Part shown: piece by piece, positions 53,451 through 56,079 of the stretch | Layout: each line of letters begins with the position of its first letter | Position numbering within the stretch: position 1 is the first letter of the stretch | Assembly: GCA_012838235.1 (NCBI GenBank) | Contig: DUPQ01000014.1 | Location: 64,108 to 128,107, forward strand | Direction: 5' to 3' | Source of the DNA: Clostridiaceae bacterium | Lineage (GTDB): Bacteria > Bacillota > Clostridia > DUPQ01 | Length of the DNA: 64,000 nt | Notes under the pieces: model-generated | Databases searched by the model: none | Seen by the model: only the letters and a program-made list of their open reading frames with translations | Told to the model about the DNA's origin: nothing | Program-made: the position numbers and the translations under genes

Positions 53451-53530
53451 CCTTTGTTGCCTCCTAAGCAAAATCTCGCCTTGCCAAGGTAAGTAATTGC
53501 ATACTTTTAAAACCCCTCAAGTGCGGCTAC
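53451..53530 (-). promoter_or_regulatory. rplU 5' leader (L21-leader-like)
   Basis: About 80 bases between the predicted start point and the rplU ATG. It contains a short hairpin CCTTGGCAAGG (plus strand 53482-53492) followed by CGAGATTTTGCTTAGGAGG, the arrangement I associate with the ribosomal L21 leader of Firmicutes. The assignment is by memory and needs a covariance-model check. Confidence 0.5.
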
Positions 53531-53536
53531 CGACAG

Positions 53537-53565
53537 ATTCTATCATAAGGAGGTATGGGTGTCAA
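53537..53565 (-). promoter_or_regulatory. Sigma-A promoter of rplU
   Basis: -35 TTGACA (53560-53565) and -10 TAGAAT (53537-53542) on the minus strand, 17-base spacer. Confidence 0.8.
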
Positions 53566-53570
53566 TAACG

Positions 53571-53823
53571 AGTTTTTCCCGTGTTTTCGCCTTTTAAATA
53601 ACTTATATCTCGTTTTATTAAGGGAAGCATAAACGTCGCAACGCCTTCTGCTCCCCTTTGCTAACTGATTTTTCCGCTGTCCGCCAGCCACTGGCACATA
53701 CGTCCAGCAAGAATGCAAGTTTTAATGTTTCTTGCCAACATCCGGTACATTGTCCGGCAAATTCGGATTTTAGGTGTCAGTCCACCGCAACTTCACATTA
53801 AACAATATTCCCAAAAATGTCAA
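53571..53823 (-). ncRNA. Candidate structured RNA or long rplU leader, with its own promoter
   Basis: A gene-free, GC-rich stretch (hand count 33/60 G+C at 53641-53700). A minus-strand promoter precedes it: TTGACA (53818-53823), 17 bases, TAATGT (53795-53800). Predicted RNA hairpins, in minus-strand sense, are GGTG/CACC (53773-53786), TTGCC.../...GGCAA (53732-53760), GCCAG/CTGGC with a 3-base loop (53683-53695) and GGGGAGCA/TGCTTCCC (53622-53656). Two of these need G-U pairs that exist only in the minus-strand RNA. No terminator follows, so it may read through into rplU. I cannot match it to a known family. Confidence 0.5.
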
Positions 53824-53854: not shown

Positions 53855-54979
53855 TCAGTCTTCAATCTTATGAAACTGCAAATTATCCGTTCCTATCTCG
53901 GATTTGTCTATGTAATAGTCGGGTTTATCACGGAAGTTGGAAGAAAATATTATATACCCGTCCACATCACTTAAGAATCCGCCCGGTATTTTGCCGTTTG
54001 CTTTATCAAATACAATGGTATTTAAGAGATTGTAATCCCGGTCATAAATGCACATAACCTGATTCTCATAATCAAACGGAACACTGTTATTGTGAACAAG
54101 AAGTATGTAATCATCTAAATAAAAAGCACTGCTATTGCCACCGTTTTCCAGCTCTATGGGCTTAACAAGGCTCATTTCGTTTGTGCCGAAATCATATTCA
54201 TAAAATCCCTTATTTTTGACATAACAATAACCTTTATTCTCATCTTTTAAATATGAACCTAAACCGGACCAATCATCGGTCAGTTTTGAGAGACTTTTTG
54301 TAACTGTCGAATAAGAATATAACGAAGATATTTTATCAGGATCGGAATTCCGCACGCTTATGTATATATTATCTCCGATCATCGTAAACATATCCGTTTG
54401 CAGTATCAAATCATTTGTCAATAATACTTCGGACTCCGATTTGTCATCTACTTTTGTTCTGTAAAGAGTAGGGTCATCTTTTCCTTTTACTCCGTTATAT
54501 TCTGCGAAATTAGTTTTAATGTAGTAATAATATCCGTTATGAAAATATCCGTGATTACTACAATGCTCTTCATACAATGCCTTAACTATTTTATGATTGC
54601 ATCCGTCCATGTCCATGCAATATATATGTTTGAAACGCCTGTAGTAAATTTTATTATTATAATAACCAATCACACTCCCTTTTAAAAACGCATTACAATC
54701 TTCCGAATTATGGCTGCAGTCAGGCTTGTTGCACAGTTTAACATATTTCGTGTTTCCCTTATGGGAGTAATATATATATCTGTTTCCGGAAGCGAAATAC
54801 GAACCGTAGGGAGTTTCAATAAATCTACCGAAACAGGCGCTTATTTTAAACGAAGTATAATATGTCTCGGGCTTTAAAACAGAAGATTGGACAGGTTCCC
54901 GGACGGTTCCGGTATTACACGATACCAGACAAGCCATAACAAGTATGAGCATTATGAGGGCAGAAACCTTTTTTGTCAT
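53855..54979 (-). CDS. Lipoprotein with beta-propeller-like repeats
   Basis: A 374-residue exported protein with a lipoprotein signal (hydrophobic 5-20, lipobox LVSC, Cys21). The mature part contains repeated Y-Y and K-x-Y-Y strands with Asp/Cys-rich loops (VKLCNKPDCSHNSEDCNAF, IYCMDMDGCNHKIV), resembling DUF5050-type surface beta-propellers. Ligand unknown. GCAGGT lies upstream of the ATG at 54979, 11 bases after the serine hydrolase gene, so the two are co-expressed. Confidence 0.72.
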   Translation of the reverse strand: MTKKVSALIMLILVMACLVSCNTGTVREPVQSSVLKPETYYTSFKISACFGRFIETPYGSYFASGNRYIYYSHKGNTKYVKLCNKPDCSHNSEDCNAFLKGSVIGYYNNKIYYRRFKHIYCMDMDGCNHKIVKALYEEHCSNHGYFHNGYYYYIKTNFAEYNGVKGKDDPTLYRTKVDDKSESEVLLTNDLILQTDMFTMIGDNIYISVRNSDPDKISSLYSYSTVTKSLSKLTDDWSGLGSYLKDENKGYCYVKNKGFYEYDFGTNEMSLVKPIELENGGNSSAFYLDDYILLVHNNSVPFDYENQVMCIYDRDYNLLNTIVFDKANGKIPGGFLSDVDGYIIFSSNFRDKPDYYIDKSEIGTDNLQFHKIED

Positions 54980-54990
54980 ACGATTACCTG

Positions 54991-56079
54991 CTATTTCCAC
55001 TTTAATTCACCTACAGCATATCCGTTTTCCATGAAATCGTATATAACCTTGCTTATCTTTTTATGAAGCTCTGTAGATTCTTCAATTACTATATCGGTCG
55101 AACAGTAAGATAAGATATAAGGGTGTTTTGTAAAAACGATTGTAGCTTCGTTATATGTAGGTAATATGGTATTTATCCCGGTTTTCATGGCAATCTGCAA
55201 GTCTTCAGGCAGTACCGACTTGGAAGACATCCAATAACCCACCTTGTTACTGCAAAGATCGTCCATAAGTTTTTGGTAGTGCTCGGGGTTTTCTTCCACA
55301 AGCCTTAATAACTCTTTGTAGTAAAGCGTAAGATCATAAGGACAGGTTTTCCAGCGCTTTTTGATGTAATCCACCTTGGCACCTAATTTGTTCATGTAAT
55401 TGACCATATACCATTCATTACAGGTCCGAATAAGCATATTTATCGCACAGTTGTCACTGTGTATAATGGCATATTCCGCCAATTCCCCTATCGTATATAC
55501 ATCTCCGAACTCCCCTTTGATTATTATCCCCGTTCCCACTTCATAATCACTTTCGGTATAAACCACGGTATCATCAAAGGAAAGTTGCCCCTTTTCCACT
55601 GCGCTATAAACATACATTACCATAGGCACTTTTGTGGATGATGCCGCTACAAACAGTTCGGTGTCGTTAATGCCTATGTATTCCTCCGTAACCGTGTTGT
55701 AAAGACTTAATCCGTGCTTACCTTGCTCGGATTTAAGAATCGACTCAAGGTAAATCTTGAGTGAAGTCATGTTTCGTATTTCAATTTCGTTTAAGTTTAT
55801 ACTTGATGACGGTACAGGTTCAGGTGTCTGAACAGCCGCGGTTTCCGTAGGCATAACGGTCTGTGTGGGAGCAACCGTTTCAGCAGGTATTTCCGTTTGC
55901 TGATATGTAGCAATCGGTGACTGAATTACGGGAGTATCGGTACTGATACCCGTATTTTTTGTAAAATATCGGGAAAGGAAAAGTACAAAAAGCGGTATAC
56001 CCACAACTACGGTTATGACGGTGATTGCAGTTAATGCTTTCTTTTCCTTATCAGTCTTTTTTTTCTTCGAATTGCTCAT
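54991..56079 (-). CDS. Membrane-anchored class A beta-lactamase-fold serine hydrolase
   Basis: A 362-residue protein with one transmembrane helix (about 17-38) and a Pro/Thr-rich linker (about 47-95), so the enzyme faces outside. The penicillin-interacting motifs are present: S147-x-x-K150 (ASSTK), S208-D209-N210 and K299-T300-G301. The E-x-x-L-N motif carrying the deacylating Glu of class A beta-lactamases is absent where expected after SDN, arguing for a peptidoglycan-active or PBP-like enzyme rather than antibiotic resistance. AAGGG precedes the ATG at 56079. Confidence 0.83.
   Translation of the reverse strand: MSNSKKKKTDKEKKALTAITVITVVVGIPLFVLFLSRYFTKNTGISTDTPVIQSPIATYQQTEIPAETVAPTQTVMPTETAAVQTPEPVPSSSINLNEIEIRNMTSLKIYLESILKSEQGKHGLSLYNTVTEEYIGINDTELFVAASSTKVPMVMYVYSAVEKGQLSFDDTVVYTESDYEVGTGIIIKGEFGDVYTIGELAEYAIIHSDNCAINMLIRTCNEWYMVNYMNKLGAKVDYIKKRWKTCPYDLTLYYKELLRLVEENPEHYQKLMDDLCSNKVGYWMSSKSVLPEDLQIAMKTGINTILPTYNEATIVFTKHPYILSYCSTDIVIEESTELHKKISKVIYDFMENGYAVGELKWK

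Follow-up and report, generated by a model that had tools for sequence, protein, structure and literature searches.

A two-unit pseudoknotted RNA linked to PBECR4 nuclease genes, and a probable solitary antitoxin copy upstream of rplU in a Clostridiaceae bacterium

The RNA gene upstream of rplU

The window, a stretch of 64,000 nucleotides from a Clostridiaceae bacterium, contains on its minus strand a structured RNA gene with its own promoter at approximately 53787-53620. No toxin gene lies beside the RNA, and rplU follows. The preliminary description of this interval reported a high G+C content, and its counts were exact (33/60 at 53641-53700 and 27/60 at 53701-53760; the whole window has 39.2%). 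It also placed on the minus strand a promoter (53795-53823) that we likewise read from the sequence, with TTGACA at 53823-53818, a 17-nt spacer and TAATGT at 53800-53795. TAATGT is a weak -10 element, and the promoter was not listed by a consensus scan. The start expected from it, near 53788-53786, falls exactly at the first helix of the RNA. The minus strand was the correct choice for the RNA, and folding of the minus-strand RNA was better than that of dinucleotide shuffles (z -2.44, 3/200). As described earlier, the interval has no gene: no homologous protein runs through it. A coding interval was rejected, as the open reading frames are mechanical only and the sequence variation consists of compensatory base pairs.

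At the 3' side, the stem proposed at 53622-53656 proved correct and forms a hairpin at 53620-53658 (minus strand; 10+6 bp, -19.7 kcal/mol) with a UGCG loop, which is UNCG-like in the relatives. The hairpin has a terminator-like position with a weak or missing U-tract and was not scored as an intrinsic terminator. The RNA probably ends near 53620, and its length is therefore probably about 168 nt, not the 220 nt estimated before.

We then compared the locus with that of a congener (G003), in which rplU, with its promoter and leader, lies about 24 bp after a beta-lactamase-like gene. The segment 53569-54991, which holds the RNA and a lipoprotein-like gene (53855-55000), is absent from the congener at this locus. 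In the window, rplU has its own promoter at 53537-53565 on the minus strand (TTGACA-17-TAGAAT, 11/12 match), which is separate from the RNA and conserved in the congener. Since the congener keeps the rplU promoter and leader without the RNA, the RNA does not belong to the rplU unit and was gained or lost separately from it. The suggestion that the RNA is a long leader of the rplU-rpmA transcript was thus unsupported, and its relatives were found upstream of PBECR4 genes or standing alone, not upstream of rplU. A cis-regulatory leader or attenuator of whichever gene follows, rplU here and PBECR4 elsewhere, could account for the position of the RNA 5' of either gene with a terminator-like hairpin between; however, the rplU promoter and leader are its own and are conserved where the RNA is absent, and solitary copies precede unrelated genes or tRNAs, which makes this reading extremely unlikely. 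The lipoprotein-like gene (minus strand) has no Pfam or NCBIfam match; the genome encodes several paralogues of it, and such genes form a tandem array in the congener (C17).

The preliminary description had named Rfam and covariation searches among the checks on its proposal of a new small RNA. At the gathering score, Rfam gave no match in the window except three tRNAs, and up to E 10 the region gave only a sub-threshold L21_leader match and a chance snoRNA. No Rfam family matched the RNA, so a known Rfam RNA was rejected; the drum model (RF02958) gave no match even at E 10, and the AbiF RNA model (RF03085) also gave none. L21_leader (RF00559) was rejected as well, since its match at 53475-53525 (minus strand; 19.9 bits, gathering score 36) lies outside the RNA. 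That segment is part of the rplU leader, is in the right place before rplU and is conserved in the congener.

Fold and covariation

The RNA opens with the P0 hairpin (53773-53786; GGUG 53786-53783 paired with CACC 53776-53773), followed by two tandem units of about 50 nt. Each unit runs from an AAAA linker through a short K strand and helix A to helix B, which bears a loop; all elements are on the minus strand. Unit 1 (53724-53771) has the K1 strand UCCG (53767-53764), helix A1 (53757-53752/53748-53742), helix B1 (53741-53737/53729-53725) and loop 1 CAAG (53734-53731). Unit 2 (53674-53723) has the K2 strand CUUG (53719-53716), helix A2 (53707-53702/53697-53691), helix B2 (53688-53685/53679-53676) and loop 2 CGGA (53683-53680). 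The K2 strand pairs with loop 1, and loop 2 pairs with the K1 strand. Because each loop thus pairs with the start of the other unit, both units are joined in a circle. A third pseudoknot, K0, between the P0 loop GACUGA (53782-53777) and UCAGUU (53668-53663) at the 3' end, closes the whole RNA. Variants with one unit also occur. A second stem described before, at 53732-53760, contains the conserved helix CCGGAC/GU.CCGG (53752-53757 with 53742-53748); its outer part would occupy a loop that, by covariation, pairs with another segment.

The pairs were read from an alignment of nine divergent sequences (A3), in which 92.4% of the pair cells were standard and 26 of the 38 pairs had two-sided changes; none of 500 shuffles matched this. 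When the alignment was slid by one column, the pairing fell to about 35%. For a covariance model (R1), only K0 and the A and B helices were supplied as structure, leaving out P0, K1 and K2; the model detected the conserved core of the window RNA at 53662-53786 (minus strand) with 120.5 bits (E 9e-29). In the 48 distinct sequences that the model collected (alignment A7), 98.5% of the pair cells were paired, 26 of the 34 pairs had two-sided changes (0/500 shuffles), and the two-sided cells numbered 232 versus 60 in shuffles, counts that are inflated by kinship among the sequences; the nine divergent sequences alone agree. P0, K1 and K2, which the model had not been given, were paired in 96-100% of the cells (P0 and K1 in 100%, K2 in 96-98%), and K0 was paired in 97%, with compensatory changes. 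Among 17 distinct K2/loop-1 types, full complementarity was seen in 82% with the type's own partner and in 14% after the partners were swapped.

The changes can be followed from copy to copy. K0 is GACUGA/UCAGUU in the window, GGCUGA/UCAGCC in the viral contig L128 and GCUUGA/UCAAGC in phage phi1605. Loop 1/K2 is CAAG/CUUG in the window, CGGG/CCCG in L124, CAGG/CCUG in L128, CGAG/CUCG in L165 and UUGG/CCAA in phi1605, and K1/loop 2 occurs as UCCG/CGGA, UCUG/CAGA and CUUG/CAAG. The pseudoknotted fold, including K0, K1 and K2, is supported by covariation. With relatives that covary massively and no Rfam match, the proposal of a new small RNA is strongly supported.

The closest relative of the window RNA is a solitary phage copy (L128, 82% identity). 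The window could hold only a decaying, untranscribed remnant without function: the toxin gene is absent, the -10 element is weak, and the RNA is missing from the congener. However, the window RNA has preserved all its helices and the three pseudoknots, apart from a single mismatch in B1 in the register chosen, and has lineage-specific compensatory changes such as CAAG/CUUG, so we consider functionless decay doubtful.

Relatives of the RNA and the linked PBECR4 genes

A blastn search of 40 relatives with the RNA as query gave two colinear matches in a genome of another family (G026), where the RNA is followed by a PBECR4 gene. An 18-mer pattern found the RNA in G060, and a 16-mer pattern found it in viral contigs (L123, L124, L126, L127 and L128). 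When 391 class genomes were searched with the PBECR4 profile PF18813, the RNA was seen upstream of PBECR4 in G104, G202 and G339, and divergently in G370, and tblastn led to the Erysipelothrix phage phi1605. A blastn search against phages and plasmids gave no match, the sequences being too diverged. With the covariance model, 17 of the 391 class genomes had matches at E<=0.01, 14 of these at E<1e-10; 399 genomes of the phylum added one further genome, and 27 of the 69 genomes of genus g61 had matches. The matches L202-L204, below 30 bits, were excluded from the counts.

An intact PBECR4 gene lies beside the RNA in genomes (G026, G060, G104, G202, G339, G370 and G814) and in viral sequences (L124, L127, L207, L212, L214 and L216), and at 13 loci the RNA is directly upstream of an intact PBECR4 gene on the same strand. 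The relatives carry the same 3' hairpin between the RNA and PBECR4, and the window RNA has this toxin-linked type of hairpin; the U-tract after the hairpin, before PBECR4, is unclear, weak or absent in many loci. The neighbouring proteins match Pfam PBECR4 (PF18813) only, with no match to a ToxN profile, and neither PADLOC nor NCBIfam has a family for them. PBECR proteins are predicted RNases with a helix histidine (PMC5512222), which fits the F-x-H-L-x-G motif that is invariant in the PBECR4 proteins compared. An AlphaFold model of PBECR4 from six sequences had a mean pLDDT of 64.7, with residues 103-161 unreliable, and no Foldseek match of this model in the PDB was better than E 0.8; we therefore make no claim on the fold from the model.

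In other loci, the PBECR4 gene is broken beside an intact RNA (G267, locus L192; G360, L193; G818, L220; L213; and phi1605), and in G830 (L237) a broken PBECR4 gene accompanies an intact RNA with one unit. The RNA might be a guide or cofactor needed for PBECR4 activity, as in a ribonucleoprotein effector. A cofactor equally predicts the tight linkage, and the unit starts and loops do vary freely provided that the pairing holds. However, the variable bases are consumed by internal pairing, and intact RNAs often stand beside a disrupted nuclease gene or without one, contrary to the expectation for a cofactor and in line with that for an antitoxin. We consider a cofactor very improbable.

The RNA also occurs without an adjoining PBECR4 gene, in the window and in L123/L126, L128, L196, L201, L209, L210, L211, L215/L217 and L218. 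PBECR4 was not found in the genome of the window, which is 85.6% complete, so that a copy elsewhere is possible. In genus g61, most copies lack an adjoining PBECR4, possess a promoter of their own and differ in their neighbours, and a U-rich terminator often follows; most g61 genomes with the RNA are without any PBECR4, and some have two or three RNA copies. Since most of these copies are alone, the RNA may have another role, for instance as an independent regulatory or structural small RNA of Clostridia that binds a host protein or ligand and was recruited later by PBECR4 modules. The presence of the RNA in 27 of 69 genomes, mostly as stand-alone copies with promoter and terminator and multiplied in some, favors such a role. 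However, the RNA has no conserved neighbour, is patchy (14 of 391 class genomes) and is present in phages, the PBECR4 linkage recurs across several families, and the drum RNA fills the same slot before other PBECR4 genes; an independent small RNA is thus unlikely. In G837 (L238/L242), three nearly identical stand-alone copies lie in tandem, 332 bp apart.

The drum RNA (RF02958) was found directly upstream of PBECR4 in 11 of the 30 PBECR4 loci of the class (L158, L159, L161-L164, L169, L173-L175 and L186). A different group of PBECR4 genes (L176, L177, L178, L179 and L187) is preceded by a further conserved, apparently structured RNA, UUUGUCAGGUAGUG...GUUAUUGCU..., that matched nothing in Rfam. 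Because drum or another structured-looking RNA stands before other PBECR4 genes, possession of an RNA partner seems to be characteristic of this protein family.

A proposed antitoxin role

Relatives of the window RNA lie directly in front of a predicted RNase gene, and the RNA is therefore probably an antitoxin, kept here without its toxin. From the combined analysis, we assign a probability of about 0.7 to the reading that the family is the RNA antitoxin of the PBECR4 nuclease and that the window copy is either a remnant or a protection against incoming PBECR4 modules. In the proposed module, the order would be a promoter, two RNA units, a hairpin and the PBECR4 toxin gene, in a type III-like operon. 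The RNA would fold into a closed two-unit ring, in which loops 1 and 2 each pair with the beginning of the opposite unit and the P0 loop pairs with the 3' end. We infer that this ring would neutralize the PBECR4 ribonuclease, a protein of predicted BECR fold, by binding it and holding the nuclease inactive. The window RNA would then either be left over from a lost module or, as a solitary antitoxin, shield the cell when phages or mobile elements bring in PBECR4 modules.

Type III operons consist of a promoter, RNA repeats, a hairpin and an RNase gene (PMC5086642), and the units of CptI and TenpI are 45-50 nt long and present in about two copies (PMC5086642, PMC12373285). The present family resembles ToxIN, CptIN and TenpIN in its tandem pseudoknotted RNA units, followed by a hairpin and an RNase gene: the RNA is upstream of the toxin gene, is repeated in tandem and has pseudoknots. 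On the other hand, the toxin is PBECR4, not a ToxN homologue, and the known antitoxins form independent H-type pseudoknots, whereas this RNA has reciprocal loop-to-start pairing and a closing pseudoknot. The window copy also differs in having no toxin gene, and it is therefore not classed as a type III system.

The AbiF RNA (RF03085), found in Firmicutes and prophages, likewise has two motifs before a toxin gene and acts in trans on the protein (PMC12373285); both its protein family and its RNA are different. The drum RNA shares the slot directly upstream of PBECR4 genes, and its model does not match the window RNA. The PBECR4-RNA pairing was not found in Rfam, PADLOC or NCBIfam, nor in the literature searched. 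That literature, with preprints and most subscription journals outside its scope, so that an earlier description is possible, did not mention PBECR4 or link PBECR or drum to RNA antitoxins.

With the antitoxin reading, an RNA family absent from Rfam acquires a function that can be tested, and drum, which shares the PBECR4 partner, gains a functional lead. If true, the reading would bring a further nuclease family under the logic of type III-like toxin-antitoxin systems, and the self-closing two-unit ring would be a new antitoxin architecture. PBECR4 nucleases and the RNAs upstream of their genes (the two-unit ring RNA, drum and one or more other types) may constitute a new superfamily of RNA-antitoxin modules, with the ring RNAs that stand alone in host chromosomes or in the tRNA clusters of phages serving as shields or counter-defence decoys; we regard the odds of this as even.

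The occurrence of copies without PBECR4 in chromosomes and among phage tRNA genes suggests protection or counter-defence as the reason for keeping or carrying RNA antitoxins. The phage tRNA clusters that hold such copies lie in L128 (9878-13908), L215 (1456-7393) and L209 (3194-4381), with ROOL also present in L128 and L215, skipping-rope in L128, and DUF3800-XI just beside the copy in L215. The pseudo-ToxI of phage TE escape mutants is a phage-borne RNA antitoxin without a toxin that neutralizes a host system (PMC5086642), and the copies in L128, L209 and L215, although of another RNA family, are candidates for a similar role. It is possible that these tRNA clusters, with their solitary RNA and ROOL, skipping-rope or DUF3800-XI, are counter-defence RNA arrays. 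In the viral contig L211 (1-1251), the solitary RNA is followed by a protein that, judged by eye, resembles a Doc-type toxin.
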